Below are positions 21,867 to 53,637 of a stretch of DNA of 56,210 nt, piece by piece. Position 1 is the stretch's first letter; each line of letters opens with the position of its first letter. This stretch comes from Bacillota bacterium (GTDB lineage: Bacteria > Bacillota > Clostridia > Lutisporales > Lutisporaceae): NCBI GenBank assembly GCA_022706825.1, contig JAKJBU010000004.1:1-56210 (forward strand), read 5' to 3'. The position numbers and the translations under genes were made by a program. Below the pieces are notes generated by a model. It searched no databases. It had not been told where the DNA came from and saw nothing but the letters and a program-made list of their open reading frames with translations.

Positions 21867-21886
21867 ATTAAAAATACGTTTTTTAA

Positions 21887-21955
21887 ACTCATATAATTTC
21901 GAGGATATGGCTCGGAAGTATCTACAACATAACCGTTAATTATGTTTCTATGAGT
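21887..21955 (+). ncRNA. Guanine-class purine riboswitch
   Basis: P1 is ACTCATA/TATGAGT (21887-21893/21949-21955). P2 is CGAG/CTCG with loop GATATGG; J2/3 is GAAGTATCTAC; P3 is AACATAA/TTATGTT with loop CCGTTAA. The two loops are the conserved kissing-loop pair. The specificity base in J3/1 is C (TCTATG), which pairs with guanine; adenine switches have U there. It controls guaB, consistent with guanine feedback on GMP synthesis. Confidence 0.93.
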
Positions 21956-21996
21956 GAAATTTCTTGTCTGCAATTTCACTATTGCAGACTTTTTTC
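21953..21996 (+). terminator. Riboswitch terminator with competing antiterminator
   Basis: The terminator is GTCTGCAAT/ATTGCAGAC (21966-21974/21981-21989) plus TTTTTT. The antiterminator is AGTGAAAT/ATTTCACT (21953-21960/21973-21980), which takes bases from both P1 and the terminator stem. Guanine binding should stabilise P1, free the terminator and switch the gene off. Confidence 0.88.
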
Positions 21997-41942: not shown

Positions 41943-43484
41943 ATGATAAAGAGGGCGCTTATAAGCGTTTCGGACAAAACCGGAATAGTTGATCTGGCCA
42001 GGGAACTGGCAAAGCAAGGGGTGGAGATAATTTCAACAGGGGGTACTGCAAAAGCCCTTGAAGATGCAGGGATAAAAGTTATCGGAATATCCGACATAAC
42101 AGGCTATCCCGAGTGCCTTGACGGAAGGGTAAAGACACTGCATCCCAATATCCACGGCGGGCTTCTGGCAATAAGGGACAAGGCGGAGCATATGGATAAG
42201 CTTCGTGAATTGGGGATAGAGACTATAGACATGGTGGTTGTTAATCTTTATCCCTTCAGAAAAACCATAGAAAAAGAAGGCACAGAGCTTCCTGAAGCTA
42301 TAGAAAACATAGACATCGGCGGCCCTTCGATGCTCAGGGCGGCAGCCAAAAACTACAAGTATGTAACGGTTGTCGTGGATCCCGGGGACTATTCCAAGGT
42401 GCTTTCCGAGATTAATAACAACGGAGATACAACTGAAGCAACAAGGTTTGAGCTTGCTGCCAAGGTTTTTTCACATACCGCCAGCTATGATGCTTTGATA
42501 GGCAATTACTTGTGGGATAAGGCCGGATTGCCGAAGTATCCGGAGACAGTGACCATGACCTTTGAAAAAGTTCAGGACCTTAGATATGGAGAAAATCCTC
42601 ATCAAGGGGCAGCATATTACAAGGAAATGAAAAAGGTCAGCGGCAGTATTGCTGCAGCAGTGCAGCTTCACGGCAAGGAGCTTTCCTTTAATAATATAAA
42701 CGATGCCAATGCAGCACTGGAAACCCTGAAGGAATTCGACGAGCCCGCAGTTGTTGCATTAAAGCATGCAAATCCCTGCGGAGTAGGTGTCGGAGACAGC
42801 ATATATGAGGCATATATGAAAGCTTATGAAGGGGATCCCGTATCCATATTTGGAGGCATTATAGCCCTGAACAGGGAAGTGGATGAAAAAACTGCAACAG
42901 AAATCGGAAAGATATTTGTGGAAATAGTGATTGCGCCCTCCTATTCGGAAGAAGCAATGAATGTCCTTACCGGCAAGAAGAACATCAGAATAATGAAGCT
43001 TGAGGATATAGGCCGCAAGCCGGAGGCAGACATAGATGTGAAGAAGGTAGGAGGCGGGCTGCTTATTCAGGATGCAGACTGGGCGGATTTTGACATGGCT
43101 GATATAAATTATGTAACTGATAGAAAGCCTACCGAGAAGGAAATGCAGGATATGCTTTTTGCATGGAAAGTGGTAAAGCATGTAAAGTCCAATGCCATTG
43201 TAGTGGCCAAAGACGGTATGACTCTTGGCATAGGACCCGGCCAGACCAACAGGATATGGTCTGCAAATATGAGCCTTGAGCGATCCGGAGAAAAGGCAAA
43301 AGGAGCCGTAATAGCCTCAGATGCATTCTTCCCCTTCGGCGATGTGGTGGAATCCGCCGCAAAGGCAGGAATAACGGCAATTATCCAGCCGGGAGGCTCC
43401 TTAAGGGATCAGGAGTCCATAGAAGGATGCAACAATCATGGAATTGCGATGATATTTACCGGGGTACGGCATTTTAAGCATTAG
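41943..43484 (+). CDS. purH: Bifunctional AICAR transformylase / IMP cyclohydrolase
   Basis: 513 aa, normal length. It performs the last two steps to IMP. The N-terminal cyclohydrolase has [36 protein letters not shown] and [14 protein letters not shown]. The transformylase half has [27 protein letters not shown] (Lys-His pair) and [18 protein letters not shown]. The ATG at 41943 lies 7 bases after purN, with GAGGTG upstream. Confidence 0.97.
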
Positions 43485-43485
43485 G

Positions 43486-43610
43486 TTTAAGCCATTATAA
43501 GCTTCAGATTTCTGCGTTGTACTGCGGATTCGGTGTCTTCACGTACTATTGTGTACGCTCCGGGCACCTCACCTCGTACGCCTTGAACTCCTCGCTTCTA
43601 ATGGCTTAAA
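43486..43610. repeat. 125-bp palindromic element between purH and purD
   Basis: Perfect 12-bp ends TTTAAGCCATTA (43486-43497) and TAATGGCTTAAA (43599-43610) enclose GC-richer sequence with an inner CGTAC/GTACG stem. It starts 1 base after the purH stop and stops just before the purD ribosome binding site. It looks like a small non-autonomous insertion or an RNA-processing element; no T-run follows. Confidence 0.7.
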
Positions 43611-43624
43611 AAGGAGGTAAGAAT

Positions 43625-44887
43625 ATGAAGGTACTTGTAGTCGGAAGCGGCGGAAGGGAACATACCCTTGTATGGAAGATAGCTCAGAGTAAGCTGGCGG
43701 ATAAAGTATACTGCGCGCCGGGGAACGGCGGAATCAGTGAACTGGCCGAATGCGTGGACATAAAGGCCGACGATATTGACGGACTTTTGGAATTTGCCAA
43801 AACCGAAGGGATCGGGCTTACGGTGGTTGGCCCGGAGGCGCCTTTGAGCCTGGGTATTGTAGATTGTTTTGAGAAAAATGGCATGAGAATATTCGGGCCT
43901 TGCCGGAAAGGAGCAATGCTTGAAAGCAGTAAGGCCTTTTCAAAGGACTTTATGATAAGAAACAAAATACCTACCGCAGCTTATAAGGTATATTATGAAG
44001 CTGAAAAAGCCAAGGCAGGGCTTGATGATTTTGGTTTTCCTGTTGTTATCAAGGCTGACGGGCTTGCGGCAGGAAAGGGTGTAATAATAGCCCAGAACAG
44101 AGAAGAAGCAATCTCCGCCATTGATGATATGCTCATGGTCAGGAAGTTTGGCGAAGCAGGCTCAAAGATTGTCATCGAGGAGTTTCTTGTTGGCAAAGAA
44201 GCTTCGATACTTGCTTTTGTTGACGGAAAAACTGCAGTGCCCATGGTAAGCGCCCAGGATTACAAAAGGGCATTGGACAATGACGAAGGGCTGAACACAG
44301 GGGGAATGGGCGCAGTATCTCCCGCATTCTATTATGATGAAAAAACGGCTGCTGTAGTGGAAAGGGATATAATCCGGCGTACTGTAGATGCTTTAAAGGC
44401 AGAAGGCATCTGTTACAAAGGAGTATTATACTTCGGAATCATGATAACCGAGAAGGGCCCCAAGGTATTGGAATACAACGCCAGGTTCGGGGATCCCGAG
44501 ACAGAGGTGGTGCTTCTGAGGCTTGAGTCGGACTTGGTTGAAATAATGAATTCGGTAATAGACGAAAAGCTTGAAGCTCAGAAAATCCAATGGAAAGATG
44601 AGCAGGCAGTCTGTGTTGTAATGGCATCCGGCGGGTATCCGGAGCATTACGAAAAGGACTATGAAATAAAAGGCCTGGATGAAGCCGCTGAAATTGACGG
44701 AGTAACGGTTTTCCATGCGGGAACAAAAAAGGCTTCCGGAAAAACTGTTACTGCCGGAGGCCGGGTGCTTGTAATAAGCGCTGCTGCAAAAAATTATAAA
44801 GAAGCAAGAGATAAAGCATATAGCGCAATTAGCAGTATAGCTTTTGAAAAAGCCCATTACAGGAAAGACATAGGGAAAAAAGATTAA
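43625..44887 (+). CDS. purD: Phosphoribosylamine-glycine ligase
   Basis: 420 aa. It makes GAR from phosphoribosylamine, glycine and ATP. MKVLVVGSGGREHTLVWK, VVGPEAPLSLGIVD, the ATP-grasp core FPVVIKADGLAAGKGVIIA (about residues 138-156), AQDYKRALDNDEGLNTGGMGAVSP and LEYNARFGDPETEVVL are all present. The ATG at 43625 follows AAAGGAGGTAAGA. It is the last gene of the purine operon. Confidence 0.97.
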   Translation: MKVLVVGSGGREHTLVWKIAQSKLADKVYCAPGNGGISELAECVDIKADDIDGLLEFAKTEGIGLTVVGPEAPLSLGIVDCFEKNGMRIFGPCRKGAMLESSKAFSKDFMIRNKIPTAAYKVYYEAEKAKAGLDDFGFPVVIKADGLAAGKGVIIAQNREEAISAIDDMLMVRKFGEAGSKIVIEEFLVGKEASILAFVDGKTAVPMVSAQDYKRALDNDEGLNTGGMGAVSPAFYYDEKTAAVVERDIIRRTVDALKAEGICYKGVLYFGIMITEKGPKVLEYNARFGDPETEVVLLRLESDLVEIMNSVIDEKLEAQKIQWKDEQAVCVVMASGGYPEHYEKDYEIKGLDEAAEIDGVTVFHAGTKKASGKTVTAGGRVLVISAAAKNYKEARDKAYSAISSIAFEKAHYRKDIGKKD

Positions 44888-45308: not shown

Positions 45309-45340
45309 AAAACCAAAGAAAAAATTTGGAGGTAAATAAA

Positions 45341-46111
45341 ATGATAAGAAAAATTGTTAAGATTGATGAAGATAAATGCAACGGCTGCGGGCTTTGTGTG
45401 CCCAACTGCGCTGAAGGTGCCATAAAGATAATAGACGGAAAAGCAAGGCTCATAGCAGATAATCTTTGCGACGGCCTGGGTGCATGTCTTGGAGAATGTC
45501 CCCGCGGTGCAATCACAATTACTGAAAGAGAAGCGGATGAATTTGACGAAACAGCTGTACATGAGCATCTTGACAGGAAGGAAGCAAAACCTGAAGTGAA
45601 GCAGGAAGCCCATTCCTGCAGCGGGCATGCACATATTGGCGGCGGATGCCCGGGAAGCATGGCAAGGGAAATAAAATTACGCGAGAATCCCGCAGAAGCA
45701 GCAGCAGTGACTTCCGGAGATATCGAAGTAAAGATTAAGTCACAACTGACTCAGTGGCCGGTACAATTGATGCTGGCTCCCCAAAAAGCACCGTATTTTG
45801 AAAATGCGGACCTTTTGATTACTGCAGACTGTGTGCCCTTTGCTTATCCCAACTATCATCTGGAGCTGTTGAAGGGTAAGAAGGTTGTAGTGGGATGCCC
45901 CAAGCTGGACGATATAGGCTATTATATGGAGAAGCTTACAGGGATAATAAGAAATAATGATATAAAAAGCGTAACAGTGACATTTATGGAGGTCCCCTGC
46001 TGCGGCGGAATTGTAAGGGCGGCTGAAACTGCCCTGGAGATGTCAGGCAAGAATATTCCCCTTCACAAGATCAGAATAAAAATCAACGGAGAAGCTGAGA
46101 AGATCAGCTGA
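45341..46111 (+). CDS. 2[4Fe-4S] ferredoxin-domain iron-sulfur protein
   Basis: 256 aa. Two cluster motifs sit at the N-terminus: [20 protein letters not shown] and [19 protein letters not shown] (about residues 9-55; the second has an expanded first spacing). A middle Cys/His stretch [14 protein letters not shown] (about 93-106) follows. The C-terminal half has [26 protein letters not shown] and EVPCCGGI, further cysteine sites. It is likely an electron-transfer or cluster protein in the cytoplasm; no exact role is known. The ATG at 45341 follows TTGGAGGTAAA. It is monocistronic, with an operator-like site shared with the ORP-type operon. Confidence 0.82.
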
Positions 46112-46124
46112 ATCCGTTAAAATA

Positions 46125-46151
46125 CAGGGGCGGCCATCATCGGCCGCCCTG
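46125..46151 (+). terminator. GC-rich hairpin terminator
   Basis: CAGGGGCGGCC/GGCCGCCCTG stem with a short ATCATC loop. The following bases are only partly T-rich. Confidence 0.65.
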
Positions 46152-46188: not shown

Positions 46189-46217
46189 TTGATAGGATTG
46201 AATGAAGCATATATAAT
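46189..46217 (+). promoter_or_regulatory. Promoter of the cobalamin-controlled operon
   Basis: TTGATA (46189-46194), 17-base spacer, TATAAT (46212-46217), about 20 bases before the riboswitch. Confidence 0.8.
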
Positions 46218-46235
46218 AAAACTATAACTTAATAC

Positions 46236-46407
46236 TGATCAGGTGCCGGTTTGTTTATGAATAATCTGCCGGCTAAAAGGGAAGTCGGGTGAAAATCCCG
46301 CGCGGTCCCGCCGCTGTAAAAGAGGAGTTCTCCTTAAGATGTCACTGAGTAGATTGGGAAGGCAAGGAGAATGATGATGCTTGAGCCAGAAGACCTACCT
46401 GGTTTAT
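46236..46407 (+). ncRNA. Cobalamin riboswitch
   Basis: The conserved order of the B12 element is present: AGGTGCCGGTTTG, AAAAGGGAAGTCGGGTGAAA, TCCCGCGCGGTCCCGCCGCT (B12 box region), GTAAAAGAGGAG, and the 3' block GCCAGAAGACCTACCTG that closes P1. It precedes a terminator, so binding of a B12 cofactor should lower expression of the uptake operon that follows. Confidence 0.95.
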
Positions 46408-46478
46408 AACACTAAATACTCTACGAGAGATAGGGGGGTGTTCTTATATGCAGGATGATTATAGTCATTTTGTCACAT

Positions 46479-46516
46479 AACCTCTTAACTATTTAGTTAA
46501 GAGGTTTATCTTTTTA
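46479..46516 (+). terminator. Riboswitch expression-platform terminator
   Basis: Perfect 12-bp stem AACCTCTTAACT/AGTTAAGAGGTT with loop ATTT, followed by TATCTTTTT. It lies 72 bases after the riboswitch core. Confidence 0.9.
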
Positions 46517-46547
46517 TTAAGAAAGAAAGCATGGAGGTTGTATTTGT

Positions 46548-49500
46548 ATGGGCAAGGCGTATTCATACAGGCGTGTATCAGCTATTATGCTGATAATGAT
46601 ATTTCTAACGGTAATTGCTCCTGTTGATTTGTATGGAACTGATTATACAGGAGTGCTTGACGATGTTGTTAATTATTATAAGTCAGATAAGCCCGGCCTT
46701 GATTCATGGTGGGAGCTTGTGGCGTTAAAAGGTACGGGACAGAACCTGAGTGATGACAGCTGGATACTTCCTCAGTGGGAAAGCGAGGATTTGCCTGCCG
46801 CAGCTGCAAATCCGGCAGATTATTCAGGATTTATACTGGGGCTTATGGCAATGGATGAAAATCCGCAAAATGCCCTTGGAGGCAGGAACCTGACGGAGGA
46901 ATTGGCAGGCAGGCAGGAGGAGGGCGGCGCTTTTGGCAATGGTGCAATTAATATGCATATATGGTCAATGGTTGCGTTAGATGCAGCAGAGGAGAATTAT
47001 GACAGGGAAAGCGCCGTTGAATGGTTACTGAGCAATCAGAAGGCCGATGGGGGTTTTGCTCTGTCCGGCATCAACGGCGATCCTGATATGACAGGAATGG
47101 CGCTGCTGGCATTATCTCCATATATAAATCAGGCTGATGTAAGCAGTGCTGTATCTCAGGCAGTTGAATATCTGGAAAATGCCCAGTGCGAATCAGGAGG
47201 CTACAGCTCATGGGGCATCGAAAATTCCAACAGTGCGGCGATGGTTATTTCGGGGCTTGTTTCTGCCGGCCAGGGTGTGAGCAGCTCCATTCTTGATGCG
47301 CTGCTGGAATATAGGCTGCCTGACAATACATTCAGTTATCAGAAAGGCGGCGCTACAAATTTCCTTTCTACCGCACAGTCCCTTATAGCACTGGGAGACA
47401 TAATTGAGAATAAGAGTATATTCCAAAGATTGAGCATTTCTCAGCAGCCCACGGATGGAGAGAAAGTCAGGATTCGGGTAGAAGGCAGCAGCTATAGCAT
47501 GGTAAATAAGGAAATAACAGTAACCTCTGCAGTGTATGCGGTAGATGCCTTGAAGCAGGTATTGGATTCCGAAAATATCACCTATGATATACAAGACGGC
47601 GTGTGGGGACAGTATATTAATGGCATTGACGGAGAAACCGCAGGAAAGTTCGGTGGTTATGACGGTTGGTTATATCTGGTTAACGGAGAAATGGCATCGG
47701 TGGGTGTAGGTGAATATAAAATCGAAGACGGAGATGAACTGGTATTTTATTATGGCATGTATCCACCGGATACTTTGATTCCCCAAGTGGATATACAACC
47801 TGTAAATCCTAAGGTAGGAGACAATTTAACGATTACTGTCACTTCAAGCTATTATGACTGGAATACCGGCAGTACGGTTGAGCTTAAAGTTCAAAATGCT
47901 GAAATAAGCTTCAACGGCAAGACCTATGCCACGGATGCCAATGGGCAGGCAATTGTGCCAAGTCCGGCTGATAAGGGTACATACACCTTGAAAGTAAGTA
48001 AGGATAACGATGGCAGTTATCCCAGCATCGTCCGCATCCCAGGTATTAATGTTATATATAGGGCGAATGGTAATGGCGGCGGAGGCAGCGGCAGCGGAGG
48101 CAGCGGTTCCGGCAGCGGCGGCTCTGCAGAAACTGCAACATTATCAGTGGAAGGTGACAGCCGTAAAGGTACGATATTGCCTGCTGTCCAAGTATTATTG
48201 CGGGATGGGGATACTGCTTACAGCATACTTGCAAGAAAAATGGGAAGTAAGGTAAAGGCTAAAGGCTCCGGCTCAAACATATATGTCTATGAGATTGACG
48301 GCTTGGCTGAGTTTGACAGGGGTCCGTCAAGCGGCTGGATGTTTGAGGTCAACGGGAGAAATCCTGATATTAGCGCTTCTGCCTATGTATTGAAGGATAA
48401 GGATGTTGTCAATTGGTATTATTCATCCGATTCCAATGAGAGCTTGGGTGCAACCGGTCAGACAGGAACTGCACAGTCAGGGAATAGCAGCGCGGAAATC
48501 AGCAGCACGTCAAATGAGGCAATAAAGAAAGCATTGTCAGAGAATATTCAGAATTCAGCTAATAAAATACTCACACAGGAAAACATTTCGGATTGGTCTG
48601 TTTTCGCACTGCAAAGGGCAGGCCGGAGCATACCCGAAAAATATATTGAATCCCTAAAGGTATACATTAATGAACATGCAGCGGGTTCCGGAAGTGCAAC
48701 CGATATTGCAAGGATGGTTCTGGCTGCAAGTGCAGCAGGAATGAATCCTGCGAACATAGACGGAAATAATCTGATTGAAAAGCTGTTCAGCATGGAGAAA
48801 ATCGACAGGCAGGGAGTCACAGGGCCGGTTTTTGCGCTGATAGCATTGGACAGCGGACCTTACAGTATTCCGTCAGGCGCAAGGTGGACGAGAGATAAGC
48901 TTGTTTCACTGATACTTGAATACCAGAATGAAGACGGAGGCTTCTGCCTTGCAAAAGATGAGAAAAGCGACATAGATTTGACAGCTATGGCACTGCAATC
49001 ACTGTCCGGTTACAGCAGCGAAAGCGCTGCTTCATCCGTAGAGAAAGCTATTGATTGGTTATCTAACCTGAAACCGGAAGAGGAGCAAACCAGTGAGAGC
49101 ATTTCACAGATTATCATAGCTCTTACATCTCTTGGTAAGGATCCGGGAAGCATACAGTTCGGCATGTATGATGGGGATTTGCTGACCTGCCTGCTGAAAT
49201 ATAAAAAGGAGGACGGCGGATTTTCACATACATTGGATGGAGACAGTGATGAAATGGCCACGGAACAGGCTTTAATGGCCATCACTTCATACAGCATGTA
49301 TGTTAACGGTTCAGGCAAGCTTTATTCCCTGCAGGTTCCTAATGGGGCATATTCAGACCTTCATGCGATTTCCGAATGGGCACTGCCGTATGTTGCCAAG
49401 GCCTCTGAGCAGGGACTGATGGAAGGGATAAAAACAGATGCTTCAGGGCAAAGGTTTGAGCCCAGGAGGAACATTTCAAGGGCAGAGCTTACTGCGCTGC

Positions 49501-49892
49501 TTTTAAGGATTTTGGGAGAAGAACCGTCAAAGAGCTTTACGCCGGTATACAATGACATAAAAGAGGGTTCATGGTATTCAGGATACGTTCTGAGGGCCAG
49601 AGAAAAGGGTATCATTAACGGTGTTACAGAAGTCACCTTCGACCCCAACAAACCGGTTACAAGGCAGGAGATGGCTGTCATGACGGCCAGAGCTTTTAAT
49701 CTTGGTGAAAAAGCATCAGGCAGCAGGATAAATGACTTGGACATTGCTTCGGAATGGGCAAGGCAGGCTATTGAGGCTGTTTACGATAACGGTATTATGA
49801 TGGGGGAAAGTAATATGTTCAACCCGAAGGGTTATGTCAGCCGTGAAATGGCAGCAGCTGTCGGAGTAAGACTCTATAATATGAAGCAATAA
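46548..49892 (+). CDS. SLH-anchored protein with two alpha-barrel and two DUF4430 domains; candidate surface B12-binding protein
   Basis: 1114 aa with a signal peptide (residues 1-~30). Order: helical repeats of the prenyltransferase/squalene-oxidase barrel type (~35-295; SNQKADGGFALSG); DUF4430 (~305-405; GYDGWLYLVNGE, VGVGEYKIEDGDELVFYYG); an Ig-like domain (~410-505); a Gly/Ser linker; a second DUF4430 (~530-625; GPSSGWMFEVNGR); a second helical barrel (~655-925; YQNEDGGFCLA, YKKEDGGFSHT); three SLH repeats (~935-1114). An alpha6-alpha6 barrel plus a DUF4430-like beta domain is the architecture of transcobalamin and intrinsic factor. With the cobalamin riboswitch and the ECF genes behind it, surface capture of B12 is the best inference. 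The ATG at 46548 follows GGAGGTTG. Confidence 0.85.
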   Translation: MGKAYSYRRVSAIMLIMIFLTVIAPVDLYGTDYTGVLDDVVNYYKSDKPGLDSWWELVALKGTGQNLSDDSWILPQWESEDLPAAAANPADYSGFILGLMAMDENPQNALGGRNLTEELAGRQEEGGAFGNGAINMHIWSMVALDAAEENYDRESAVEWLLSNQKADGGFALSGINGDPDMTGMALLALSPYINQADVSSAVSQAVEYLENAQCESGGYSSWGIENSNSAAMVISGLVSAGQGVSSSILDALLEYRLPDNTFSYQKGGATNFLSTAQSLIALGDIIENKSIFQRLSISQQPTDGEKVRIRVEGSSYSMVNKEITVTSAVYAVDALKQVLDSENITYDIQDGVWGQYINGIDGETAGKFGGYDGWLYLVNGEMASVGVGEYKIEDGDELVFYYGMYPPDTLIPQVDIQPVNPKVGDNLTITVTSSYYDWNTGSTVELKVQNAEISFNGKTYATDANGQAIVPSPADKGTYTLKVSKDNDGSYPSIVRIPGINVIYRANGNGGGGSGSGGSGSGSGGSAETATLSVEGDSRKGTILPAVQVLLRDGDTAYSILARKMGSKVKAKGSGSNIYVYEIDGLAEFDRGPSSGWMFEVNGRNPDISASAYVLKDKDVVNWYYSSDSNESLGATGQTGTAQSGNSSAEISSTSNEAIKKALSENIQNSANKILTQENISDWSVFALQRAGRSIPEKYIESLKVYINEHAAGSGSATDIARMVLAASAAGMNPANIDGNNLIEKLFSMEKIDRQGVTGPVFALIALDSGPYSIPSGARWTRDKLVSLILEYQNEDGGFCLAKDEKSDIDLTAMALQSLSGYSSESAASSVEKAIDWLSNLKPEEEQTSESISQIIIALTSLGKDPGSIQFGMYDGDLLTCLLKYKKEDGGFSHTLDGDSDEMATEQALMAITSYSMYVNGSGKLYSLQVPNGAYSDLHAISEWALPYVAKASEQGLMEGIKTDASGQRFEPRRNISRAELTALLLRILGEEPSKSFTPVYNDIKEGSWYSGYVLRAREKGIINGVTEVTFDPNKPVTRQEMAVMTARAFNLGEKASGSRINDLDIASEWARQAIEAVYDNGIMMGESNMFNPKGYVSREMAAAVGVRLYNMKQ

Positions 49893-49901
49893 TAATATTA
49901 A

Positions 49902-49932
49902 GCCTCCTGCCTGTAAAAATACAGGCAGGAGC
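49902..49932 (+). other. Intercistronic hairpin
   Basis: CTCCTGCCTGT/ACAGGCAGGAG is an 11-bp perfect stem between the surface-protein gene and the lipoprotein gene. No T-run follows, so it may protect or process the mRNA, or terminate partially, giving more of the first product. Confidence 0.6.
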
Positions 49933-49962
49933 AAAATCCATTATTTAATGCGGGAGAGTAAT

Positions 49963-50565
49963 ATGAGAAGATTCACATTTTTATTATATGCAGTACTTCT
50001 GATAATTTTATCAGGGTGCGGCAATGCAGCAGATGCGGACATTCCGAATTCGGAGAAGATTTCAAAGCCGGTATTGTCTGATGAAAGCAATTGCATAAAG
50101 GGTACAAAAAAAGAAGATATCCCGGATGGTAAAACAAGTATTAAACCGGAGAGTAAATCGGAAAGTAAAAATAATGAAGAGCATGTAGTAAATCAAGAAG
50201 CAGCAACTGCCAAGGTACATATTTCCATTACGGGACATAAGGATGTGGGGATAATTCTTGCAGATACGGCAGTAAATATTGATGAGGGGGATACGGTAAT
50301 TGATGTTTTGAAAAGAACTGCAGAACTAAACAGTATACAGCTGGAATGCAGCGGAATCAAAGCCATGGCATATGTAAAAGGCATTGGGAACACCTATGAA
50401 TTCGATTACGGTCCCAAGAGCGGCTGGATTTACAGAGTAAACGGGGAAATATCCAATGTAGGTGCGGGCAAATATGAAGTGAAAGACGGAGATTATATCG
50501 AATGGCTGTATACGGTGGATTTAGGAAGGGAGTTTGATACGGAATCAGGAGGAGCTCAGGAATGA
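49963..50565 (+). CDS. DUF4430 lipoprotein, candidate B12 shuttle
   Basis: 200 aa. The lipoprotein signal is MRRFTFLLYAVLLIILSGC with Cys19 in the lipobox. A charged, Lys/Ser/Glu-rich linker (~25-80) precedes one DUF4430 domain (~85-195): DEGDTVIDVLKRTAE, FDYGPKSGWIYRVNGEISNVGAGKYEVKDGDYIEWLYT. The same domain occurs twice in the upstream surface protein. Its place between the wall protein and the ECF genes suggests a membrane-anchored relay for cobalamin; this is inference. The ATG at 49963 follows GGGAGAG (the ATG at 49948 overlaps it). The stop overlaps the next start by 4 bases. Confidence 0.82.
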   Translation: MRRFTFLLYAVLLIILSGCGNAADADIPNSEKISKPVLSDESNCIKGTKKEDIPDGKTSIKPESKSESKNNEEHVVNQEAATAKVHISITGHKDVGIILADTAVNIDEGDTVIDVLKRTAELNSIQLECSGIKAMAYVKGIGNTYEFDYGPKSGWIYRVNGEISNVGAGKYEVKDGDYIEWLYTVDLGREFDTESGGAQE

Positions 50566-51440
50566 ATGCAGGATTTTCGTCGGTACATCCCGGAGTATGC
50601 TTTACATATTATACCGTAATAATGGCTTTTGCAATGATTTTGTACCATCCTGCTTACCTGGCCTCAATGCCCATAGCTTTGATAACCTGGCTATTGCTGC
50701 ATGAAAAGGGCAGAAGCCTGTCCGGTTCATGGCATTATTACCTGCTGACAGGTATTGCGGTACTGATAATAAATCCTCTCATAAACCACAGAGGGGAGAG
50801 GGTTCTGTTTTTTCTCGGTGAACAGGCTGTGACCTTTGAAGCTGTTGTATACGGATTCACTATGATGCTGTCGATGCTGACAATACTTATTGCATTTATT
50901 TGTTTCCGTCAGGCAGTGGATAATCATAAATTCCTGTATCTTTTCTCATCCATCCTTCCCAAAACAGCATTCCTGATAATGATGTCAATGGGCTTTGTCC
51001 CTTTGCTTACTGACAGGATGAAGCAGATATCCATTGTTCAGAAAGCCAGGGGGCTGGATATGACGGAAGGAACTGCCGTAAAGAGGGCAAAGGACGGTAT
51101 GCAAATATTGAAGATTCTTATTTCCTGGTCTCTTGAAGGAGCACTGCAAACTGCCGATTCGATGAAAGGGAGAGGCTATGGAATTGCAAAAAGGAGCAGC
51201 TATATGAAATACAGGATAGATGGCAGGGATTGGCTGATTATGGCATCAATTGCAATACTATCGGCTATCACTTCCATTGGTTTATATTTTGGATATGGAA
51301 AGCTTGTGATTTTTCCGTCCTTGGAAATCATAAGCATGGATATTACCGGCATTGTTTTTTATTCTGCCTTCTGTTTGCTGTTGCTTATACCAATAATTGT
51401 TGAGGGAAGGGAAATCTTAATATGGCACTGTTACAAATAA
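50562..51440 (+). CDS. ecfT: ECF transporter transmembrane component (EcfT)
   Basis: 292 aa with about five to six membrane segments. The two coupling-helix motifs of EcfT/CbiQ proteins are present: QKARGLDMTEG (about residues 163-173) and ADSMKGRGYGIAKR (about 202-215); their Ala-Arg-Gly and Gly-Arg-Gly cores dock on the ATPases. It starts inside the lipoprotein stop (ATGA) with GGAGCTCAGGA upstream and overlaps the ATPase gene by 19 bases. Confidence 0.92.
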   Translation: MNAGFSSVHPGVCFTYYTVIMAFAMILYHPAYLASMPIALITWLLLHEKGRSLSGSWHYYLLTGIAVLIINPLINHRGERVLFFLGEQAVTFEAVVYGFTMMLSMLTILIAFICFRQAVDNHKFLYLFSSILPKTAFLIMMSMGFVPLLTDRMKQISIVQKARGLDMTEGTAVKRAKDGMQILKILISWSLEGALQTADSMKGRGYGIAKRSSYMKYRIDGRDWLIMASIAILSAITSIGLYFGYGKLVIFPSLEIISMDITGIVFYSAFCLLLLIPIIVEGREILIWHCYK

Positions 51441-53086
51441 ACAACTTTAATTTTACTTATGCGGGAGATACAAAAAAGGTTCTTTCAGGAATAAATCTTA
51501 CCGTCGGGCAAGGAGAGTTTATTGTATTATGCGGACCATCAGGTTCAGGGAAAACGACACTTCTCCGTAATATAAAAAGAGAGATAAGTCCTGCGGGCAT
51601 TAAAACCGGAGATATACTGTACAAAGGTATGGCCTTAGATGAATTAAAGGCTGAGGTAAGTGCAAAAGAGATAGGAATGGTGTTCCAGGAACCGGACAGC
51701 CAGATTGTCATGGATACGGTGATTCATGAGCTGGCCTTTTCCCTTGAGAATTTTGGGTATGCACCTGATTTTATAAATAAGAAGCTATCCGAAATGGCCG
51801 CTTTTTTCGGATTGACTGAATATCTGCATAAGCCGGTGCAAGAACTGTCAGGAGGCCAGAAGCAGGTAATAAACATCTGTTCTGTCATGCTAACAGAGCC
51901 GAAGCTGCTTTTATTGGATGAGCCTACATCTCAGCTTGATCCGGTAGCAGCCCGTGAACTTATAAGCTTGATTCATCAGATAAACCGGGAATTTTCTGTT
52001 ACTGTAATAATTAGCGAACACAGGCTGGAAGAGCTTTTTTCAATAGCAGACCGGGTTGTTTATATGGATGGGAGTATTATTAAGTATTGCAATTCTCCGG
52101 ATGGGGTATCAAAGGAGATTATGGAAGCCAAAGACGAATATGCAGTTAAATCTATCCCTCCAATAGTACGTTTGTTTTTCAGCCTTTCAAAGGAGAAAGG
52201 CAAAGGCCCAGGGTGCGGCATTCCCATGAGCGTAAGAGAAGGAAAGCAGTTTATGCAAAATATCAGATGCAGTGTTAACGGGTTGACTGATATGGAAATC
52301 AAGAAGGATTGGGTTGAAGAGATCATTAACTGTAAGGATATCGGCTTTAGATATGCCAGGGAAGAGCCCATGGTTCTAGAGAAACTGACACTTAAAATAA
52401 TGAAAGGGGAATTCATGGCTATACTGGGCGGCAACGGGTCAGGCAAAAGCACGCTGCTGCTGGCGATGGCCGGGCTGATAACCCCGCAGCAGGGCAGCAT
52501 CTGTGTCAGAAAGAAGAATATCACCTATATGAAACAGTCTGAAAGAAACGGTATAATAGGCTATGTTGCGCAAAATCCTTTGCTTCATTTCACATTGGAT
52601 ACAGTAAAGGAGGAGCTTGAATTTGCATTGCAGAACTCATTAAAAACCGGAAGCAAAGCAAAAATGGAAGAGCTTATTGAACTATTCGGCTTGAAGGATT
52701 TAACGGACAGGCATCCCTATGATTTGAGCGGAGGCCAGCAGCAAAATCTGGCTGTCGCATGTGCTTTGATTCATGAACCGGAGATACTGTTGATTGATGA
52801 ACCTACCAAGGGGCTTGACAGCATATCAAAGGAAAAACTTGCAGAATTGTTAAAAAGCCTTAAGGGTAAAGGTACTTCCGTAGTTATGGCAACCCACGAT
52901 ATTGAGTTTGCAGCACACTATGCTGAAAAATGCGCAATGCTGTTTGACGGTTCTATATCAGATTGCGCTGAACCTTCAAGGTTTTTCAGCGGCAATTACT
53001 TTTATACTACTTCGATTAACCGGGCGGTAAGGGATTATCTGCCTCACGCAATAACATATGAGGATGTGATAAGGGCATGCCTATGA
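51422..53086 (+). CDS. ECF transporter ATPase, two nucleotide-binding domains in one chain
   Basis: 554 aa. Domain 1 (~1-240): Walker A LCGPSGSGKTTLL, Q-loop FQEPDSQIV, signature ELSGGQKQ, Walker B LLLLDEPTSQLD, switch His in SEHR. Domain 2 (~305-545): ILGGNGSGKSTLLL, AQNPLLHFT, DLSGGQQQN, ILLIDEPTKGLD and ATHD. It is equivalent to EcfA1 plus EcfA2 fused. It powers solute release from the S component. It overlaps the S-component gene by 10 bases. Confidence 0.94.
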   Translation: MALLQINNFNFTYAGDTKKVLSGINLTVGQGEFIVLCGPSGSGKTTLLRNIKREISPAGIKTGDILYKGMALDELKAEVSAKEIGMVFQEPDSQIVMDTVIHELAFSLENFGYAPDFINKKLSEMAAFFGLTEYLHKPVQELSGGQKQVINICSVMLTEPKLLLLDEPTSQLDPVAARELISLIHQINREFSVTVIISEHRLEELFSIADRVVYMDGSIIKYCNSPDGVSKEIMEAKDEYAVKSIPPIVRLFFSLSKEKGKGPGCGIPMSVREGKQFMQNIRCSVNGLTDMEIKKDWVEEIINCKDIGFRYAREEPMVLEKLTLKIMKGEFMAILGGNGSGKSTLLLAMAGLITPQQGSICVRKKNITYMKQSERNGIIGYVAQNPLLHFTLDTVKEELEFALQNSLKTGSKAKMEELIELFGLKDLTDRHPYDLSGGQQQNLAVACALIHEPEILLIDEPTKGLDSISKEKLAELLKSLKGKGTSVVMATHDIEFAAHYAEKCAMLFDGSISDCAEPSRFFSGNYFYTTSINRAVRDYLPHAITYEDVIRACL

Positions 53087-53637
53087 TAAGATTCGAGACA
53101 AAAAAGCAGGACCCGCGGGAATTGGTTCTGATTTCGATGCTTGCAGCAATAGCGGCAATCAGCAGAATATTGTTCGCACCTCTGCCGAATTTTAAACCAA
53201 TGTCTTTTGTTATTATTGTTACCGGCATTGTATTCGGCCCGGAATCCGGCTTCATGGTGGGATCTGTATCGGCAATCCTGTCAAATATTTTTTTCGGCCA
53301 GGGTCCGTGGACTTTACTGCAGATGCTTGCCTGGGGATTGATGGGGCTTACGGCCGGACTTTTAAGAAATACGGTCTGGATTAAAAGCAGGTATGGAATA
53401 TTAATGTTTGGATTCTCCTGGGGATTCATATTCGGTTGGATAATGGATGCATGGTACATCATAGGATTCATAAGGCCGTTGAACCTGATGACAATTATTG
53501 GAGGCCTTTCTGCTAGCTTTTATTTTGATTTGATGCATGCGCTTGCAAATACTTTTTTCCTGGGAATTTTTTCAAAGAGCTGGATAAAGCTGTTTAATCG
53601 CATAAAGATAAAATACGGTTTACTGGAAGACTCTTAG
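53077..53637 (+). CDS. ECF transporter substrate-binding (S) component, likely cobalamin-specific
   Basis: 186 aa with six predicted membrane segments. The N-terminus RELVLISMLAAIAAISRILFAPLPNFKP has the Ala-rich helix-1 motif by which S components meet EcfT. Then FVIIVTGIVFGPESGFMVGSVSAILSNIFFGQGPWTLLQMLAWGLMGLTAGLL, a block common to CbrT-like and related S proteins. Specificity for cobalamin rests on the riboswitch and operon context; a precursor such as cobinamide is also possible. It is the last gene of the operon. Confidence 0.85.
   Translation: MPMIRFETKKQDPRELVLISMLAAIAAISRILFAPLPNFKPMSFVIIVTGIVFGPESGFMVGSVSAILSNIFFGQGPWTLLQMLAWGLMGLTAGLLRNTVWIKSRYGILMFGFSWGFIFGWIMDAWYIIGFIRPLNLMTIIGGLSASFYFDLMHALANTFFLGIFSKSWIKLFNRIKIKYGLLEDS

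Follow-up and report, generated by a model that had tools for sequence, protein, structure and literature searches.

A 56,210-nucleotide stretch of a Bacillota genome (Clostridia, Lutisporaceae; assembly GCA_022706825.1, contig JAKJBU010000004.1), referred to below as the window, carries an operon that probably encodes a vitamin B12 (corrinoid) scavenging system. Downstream of a cobalamin riboswitch, the operon encodes a secreted surface protein built from two α6/α6 barrels and two DUF4430 domains and anchored by S-layer homology (SLH) repeats, a lipoprotein with a single DUF4430 domain, and an energy-coupling factor (ECF) transporter with a transmembrane coupling protein (T), a fused pair of ATPase units (A-A′), and a substrate-binding S-component. 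The preliminary description of this DNA had named these parts as one operon in this order, and each of them was found (Table 1). The source genome is a draft that is 71% complete and is spread over 180 contigs.

Competition for B12 shapes gut and soil communities. To our knowledge, the passage of B12 through the thick wall and S-layer of Gram-positive cells has been little studied, and the usual view of ECF transporters is that they need no binding proteins outside the cell. A wall receptor and a lipoprotein devoted to a CbrT-type importer, conserved across Bacillota, would notably extend this picture of ECF transport. The operon offers a clear and testable case in which bacterial proteins with the domains of the human B12 carriers would capture B12 and supply it to an ECF importer.

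A riboswitch and a CbrT-type transporter in one transcription unit

The cobalamin riboswitch described earlier as clear is well supported, with a match that covers the full Rfam model (positions 1-189 of 189) at 109.2 bits, compared with a gathering score of 31.5. Between the aptamer and the first gene lies a terminator hairpin with a T run, in a region with a folding energy of -34.8 kcal/mol (z -4.0). This position is consistent with ligand-dependent control of the operon, and we infer the direction of that control: low intracellular adenosylcobalamin (AdoCbl) would let transcription through the terminator. The transcription unit starts with the promoter at 46189 and ends with the stop codon of the S-component gene at 53637, with five open reading frames (ORFs) after the riboswitch. 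Adjacent genes from the lipoprotein through the S-component overlap by 4 to 19 bases each, which argues for a single mRNA.

The ECF transporter is complete, as had been claimed, and its S-component proved to be of the CbrT type. The EcfT protein of the window alone had no match in Pfam, and the CbiQ/EcfT family (PF02361) is matched by nine of the 12 members of the EcfT family alignment, the best at 2.2e-12. For the S-component, the best solved structure is 6FNP, the ECF-CbrT complex of Lactobacillus delbrueckii, with E=7.9e-12 for the single sequence and 1.5e-20 for the family profile; the next solved S-components match the same profile at 9.5e-5 (4hzu) and 1.3e-3 (3p5n). ECF-CbrT imports both cobalamin and cobinamide (Santos et al, 2018; PMC5997447). 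Because CbrT is by far the best solved match and its complex transports these substrates, the membrane part of the system is best read as a B12 importer.

Table 1. Features of the operon in the window, with the evidence for each.
Feature	Position	Strand	Evidence
Sigma-A-type promoter, TTGATA-17-TATAAT	46189..46217	+	Consensus scan, 11/12 matches, best site of the region; pattern match only
Cobalamin riboswitch aptamer, AdoCbl class I type	46224..46416	+	RF00174, 109.2 bits, E=1.7e-26
Intrinsic terminator, riboswitch expression platform, 12-bp stem, tail TATCTTTTTA	46479..46506	+	Terminator scan
Secreted SLH-anchored surface protein, 1114 aa	46548..49892	+	ORF; Pfam DUF4430 x2 (4.9e-30), SLH x3 (5.4e-28), Prenyltrans/SQHop toroid (Prenyltrans 1.8e-11)
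α6/α6 barrel 1, residues ~35-300	46650..47447	+	AlphaFold2 model, pLDDT 91.2; Foldseek/VIA matches
DUF4430 domain 1 (SLBB, transcobalamin β-domain type)	47538..47756	+	PF14478, 59.8 bits
DUF4430 (SLBB) domain 2, before barrel 2	48207..48425	+	PF14478, 59.9 bits
α6/α6 barrel 2, residues ~654-920	48507..49307	+	AlphaFold2 model, pLDDT 87.4; barrel matches
Three SLH repeats, cell-wall anchor	49368..49877	+	PF00395, three stretches, E=5.4e-28
DUF4430 lipoprotein, 205 aa, lipobox LSGC, Cys24	49948..50565	+	PF14478, E=9.6e-20
EcfT transmembrane coupling protein	50562..51440	+	Orthologue alignment with conserved ADSMKARGYG motif
Fused EcfA-EcfA′ ATPase	51422..53086	+	Two ABC_tran stretches, 1.3e-63; NCBIfam TIGR04520 ECF_ATPase_1 above cut-off
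CbrT-type S-component, predicted B12-binding membrane protein	53077..53637	+	PDB 6fnp match; Pfam ECF_trnsprt 2.8e-12

Extracellular proteins related to the animal B12 carriers

The surface protein begins with a signal peptide, visible in the sequence as a hydrophobic N-terminal segment, followed by barrel 1, a DUF4430 domain, an Ig-like stretch, a second DUF4430 domain, barrel 2, and the three SLH repeats. The SLH part matches the solved SLH unit of the S-layer protein sap (E=3.5e-13). Among relatives of the surface protein, the wall anchor is SLH in 29 and an LPXTG-type tail in 24, and the presence of the same module on two unrelated wall anchors argues that standing in the wall matters. All three DUF4430 domains of the window, two in the surface protein and one in the lipoprotein, exceed the PF14478 cut-off. 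Lipoprotein genes of the same type in relatives have a recognisable lipobox in 54 of 91 cases.

DUF4430 is demonstrably homologous, at the level of sequence, to the β domain of the animal B12 carriers. A profile built from the DUF4430 domains of the surface proteins (A6) matches transcobalamin-2 at 3.6e-8, transcobalamin-1/haptocorrin at 4.5e-7, and intrinsic factor at 2.6e-4, and its other significant matches comprise a single bacterial protein of unknown role. An aligned tryptophan is kept in 26 of 26 surface DUF4430 domains. The motif VWGQYINGI in DUF4430 domain 1 aligns with SWGPYITCI of haptocorrin and LSGPYLTSV of transcobalamin; a conserved tyrosine in the pre-strand/strand-3 region is present in all 25 lipoproteins and corresponds, by eye, to the tyrosine of the transcobalamin motif. 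The kinship extends to predicted structure in module 1, the unit of barrel 1 and DUF4430 domain 1. In this module the barrel precedes the β domain in one chain, the same order as in transcobalamin, haptocorrin, and intrinsic factor. A ligand-free AlphaFold2 model of module 1, calculated with 28 sequences, has a mean predicted local distance difference test score (pLDDT) of 91.2 and a predicted template modelling score (pTM) of 0.76. In a Foldseek search of the PDB, ranks 1-15 are taken by chains of transcobalamin, haptocorrin, and intrinsic factor, matched over the full module at 1.3e-12 to 2.5e-10, and the next family appears only at 7.9e-6. The earlier proposal that both folds are related to transcobalamin-type carriers thus stands for the DUF4430 profile and the module 1 fold, but the mutual placement of the two domains did not superpose, as discussed below.

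Conservation among relatives of the S-component

For a sample that was blind to both DUF4430 and riboswitches, loci were chosen by alignment of the S-component alone, with one genome per species. Relatives of the S-component occur at at least 595 loci, of which the best 80 were kept, and 71 of these have at least 7.5 kb of upstream sequence. As the closest relatives were sampled, the proportions describe this subfamily rather than all CbrT. The sampled genomes are mostly Paenibacillus, Bacillus-like genera, Desulfosporosinus, Clostridia, and lactobacilli, and riboswitches in them were detected with a nucleotide profile from Rfam-confirmed members rather than with a covariance model. A DUF4430 gene and an EcfT gene are each present at 71 of the 71 loci, a barrel gene at 62, mostly fused to DUF4430, and a B12 riboswitch at 65. 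The preliminary description had suggested looking in other Clostridia for the same gene order behind B12 riboswitches; DUF4430, barrel, and riboswitch occur together at 60 of the 71 loci. The riboswitch matches lie on the operon strand in 69 cases and on the opposite strand in none, mostly 20 to 300 bases ahead of the first gene. This co-occurrence of DUF4430, barrel, and riboswitch with the S-component is far beyond chance.

A separate, Rfam-checked set built from relatives of the surface protein has the same pattern in several families of the class. In the reverse search, which covered 46 related genomes, a B12 riboswitch lies on the same strand within 8 kb upstream of 20 of the 25 strong DUF4430 matches, compared with just four of 11 weak matches. 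Within the family to which the source of the window belongs the operon is patchy, with DUF4430 in 4 of 22 genomes. At some loci, including L070 and L113, barrel and DUF4430 are encoded as separate genes, and at three others (L071, L074, and L077) the operon is reduced to the riboswitch, the DUF4430 lipoprotein, and the ECF transporter, with no barrel surface protein. Loci with the lipoprotein and ECF transporter alone suggest that these two form the common core of the system and that the barrel protein is an outer addition. The lactobacilli at loci L070, L113, L122, and L124 have T, A, and S genes together with DUF4430 genes and no recognisable B12 riboswitch. Locus L048 (937-19942) has three cobalamin riboswitches and several DUF4430 and barrel genes, including an ORF of ~2500 aa, around one ECF set.

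Four B12-binding enzyme domains are found in the source genome, and such domains occur in nine of the nine genomes that have these genes. CbiD was not found in the source genome, where 71% completeness makes its absence weak evidence, nor in six of the nine genomes, with the same caution where a genome is incomplete. On another contig of the source genome (C142; L050 1680-5201), a second cobalamin riboswitch is followed by BtuF, a BtuD-type ATPase that carries an extra C-terminal part, and BtuC.

A proposed relay, rival readings, and known systems

From these observations we infer corrinoid binding, a clamp mechanism, and a relay from the wall to the lipoprotein to CbrT. In this process, the two barrel/DUF4430 pairs of the SLH-anchored protein would close on a corrinoid in the manner of the α and β domains of transcobalamin. 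The lone β domain of the lipoprotein would receive the corrinoid at the membrane and present it to the dedicated ECF transporter (T, fused A-A′, and CbrT-type S), which would import it. The transcobalamin β domain alone binds cobalamin with its shape almost unchanged, and the α domain assembles on it (PMC5599065), which makes a lipoprotein with only a β domain plausible. The full proposal, in which double wall clamps with one pair in each domain order hand the corrinoid to a lone-β lipoprotein and then to CbrT, and in which the animal carriers are soluble offshoots, is a tentative one that we regard as possible. If true, ECF uptake, which normally needs no binding protein outside the cell, would here depend on a dedicated chain of extracellular binding proteins.

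Several observations weigh against the B12 scavenging reading or its details. The domains of module 1 match the carriers singly, and one rigid superposition of the module on transcobalamin gives a root-mean-square deviation of ~20 Å, so that the domains sit differently in the ligand-free model from those in the holo carriers. Nor is a closed B12 pocket seen in this model. Of the earlier B12 uptake reading, riboswitch control, a CbrT-type importer, wall anchoring, and fold kinship were recovered, but the clamp geometry was not. In transcobalamin a flexible linker connects the domains, which are thought to come together when B12 binds (PMC5599065), and the open model therefore neither proves nor excludes a clamp. 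In module 2, where the β domain precedes the barrel, structural matches are weak and mixed, at 4.1e-4 to 4e-3, and transcobalamin is found among them alongside farnesyltransferases and terpene cyclases; the β-domain sequence profile of the module 2 family gives a clearer match to the carriers. The barrel fold, taken alone, is widespread. Structural matches of barrel 1 include intrinsic factor, transcobalamin, and terpene cyclases. Terpene cyclases also dominate the sequence search with the module 1 profile (A3), where intrinsic factor reaches only 0.023, and the barrel sequence by itself is consequently no argument for B12. In VIA-align, too, the barrel matched terpene cyclases at higher rank than intrinsic factor, and this ranking was not used as an argument. 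A single-sequence search of the PDB with the lipoprotein returned nothing meaningful, and the profile of its 25-member subfamily matched no solved structure at E<=0.01. The barrel protein is missing at nine of the 71 loci and the riboswitch at six, which indicates that the surface part is not indispensable. The control genome of Lactococcus lactis has a DUF4430 match and no B12 riboswitch match, and DUF4430 may therefore bind other ligands in places. Finally, the host also carries the BtuF-BtuD-BtuC set, and would thus have a pair of distinct B12 importers, each behind a cobalamin riboswitch.

The alternative that deserves most attention, although we consider it unlikely, is that the operon takes up either another corrinoid, for example cobinamide or a form of pseudo-B12, or a precursor of B12, for example a lower-ligand base, and that its surface proteins are tuned to that ligand. 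The transport of cobinamide by ECF-CbrT (PMC5997447) would fit this alternative, as would the similarity of WGQYI in the window to WGPYI in haptocorrin, which binds many corrinoids, and the two importers of the host may split ligands between them, given BtuFDC behind the other B12 riboswitch. Against it, the S-component profile is far closer to CbrT than to other solved S-components. The riboswitch does not decide the ligand, because its class senses AdoCbl, which any of the candidate ligands could serve. We consider it very improbable that the B12 role is confined to the ECF transporter and lipoprotein, with the barrel protein serving another task in the wall as an adhesin or as an enzyme of the terpene cyclase/prenyltransferase fold. 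Its fold is indeed shared with terpene cyclases and prenyltransferases, and nine of the 71 loci lack it, but it is present at the 62 others, mostly fused to DUF4430 and behind the same riboswitch. The best full-length matches of module 1 are B12 carriers, and a terpene cyclase would be unlikely in a secreted, wall-anchored protein. Import of cobalt by a CbiMNQO-like system is the least likely explanation, with scarcely any probability left to it: the T and A subunits are of the CbiQ/CbiO type and cobalt importers also occur under B12 riboswitches (PMC11477304), but the S-component is CbrT-like, which led us to set cobalt import aside, and matches CbiM only at E=0.049, below the family cut-off. 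Cobalt importers would also have no need for transcobalamin-like proteins.

Capture of B12 by such proteins had been put forward as new in the preliminary description but was predicted in 2007. The main text of Burroughs, Balaji, Iyer, and Aravind (2007; PMC1796856) describes Gram-positive transcobalamin-type SLBB domains, which correspond to Pfam DUF4430, fused to α/α toroids on either side. A further SLBB protein and CbiO/CbiQ genes are encoded in the same operons. Bacteria with these operons usually lack key enzymes of B12 synthesis. The authors concluded that such bacteria obtain B12 or its precursors by scavenging, and they proposed that the animal B12 carriers were acquired from such Gram-positive bacteria (PMC1796856). 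With the same domain, toroid, and CbiO/CbiQ-type genes, the operon in the window belongs to the system described there, and the prediction of B12 scavenging is shared. The main text of that paper makes no mention of SLH, its passages on these proteins draw no link to a riboswitch, and the work predates both the CbrT S-component and predicted structures. To that text the present analysis adds the near-universal link to a B12 riboswitch, the assignment of the S-component to the CbrT type, anchoring in the wall by SLH or LPXTG, and the match of predicted structures. A literature search, with most subscription papers and preprints outside its reach, found the 2007 SLBB papers as the only prior work and no experimental test.

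Other known systems resemble the operon in part. ECF-CbrT of L. delbrueckii (6FNP) shares the S-component family, T, and two A units. There, however, CbrT is encoded in nrdJ-cbrS-cbrT-pduO and its ECF module is shared with other S-components (PMC5997447), whereas the operon in the window has its own T and A genes, which follow a riboswitch and the genes of two extracellular DUF4430 proteins. Transcobalamin, haptocorrin, and intrinsic factor have an α6/α6 barrel followed by the same β domain as module 1, but they are soluble, are taken up by receptors, and have one barrel/β pair. In contrast, the wall-anchored protein of the window has a second pair with the domain order reversed, and a lone β domain is carried by a lipoprotein. 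The likeness to BtuG/BtuB of Bacteroides (Wexler et al, 2018; PMC6143338), where a surface B12 catcher is also encoded with an importer, may be one of function only; BtuG/BtuB is an outer-membrane system with a TonB-dependent BtuB. BtuFCD, present also on contig C142, is a riboswitch-controlled B12 importer with a lipoprotein binding component, as here, but is an ATP-binding cassette importer with a BtuF-fold binding protein instead of an ECF transporter with DUF4430.

Directly upstream of the operon, a gene at 45326-46111 (+) encodes a protein of 261 aa whose N-terminal part resembles a 2[4Fe-4S] ferredoxin and whose C-terminal part is unnamed, and a palindromic hairpin (46128-46149) lies between this gene and the operon. 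Farther upstream are the purH and purD genes (41943-44887) and a purine riboswitch aptamer at 21869-21970 (+) (RF00167, 83.8 bits), the sole further Rfam match in the window.

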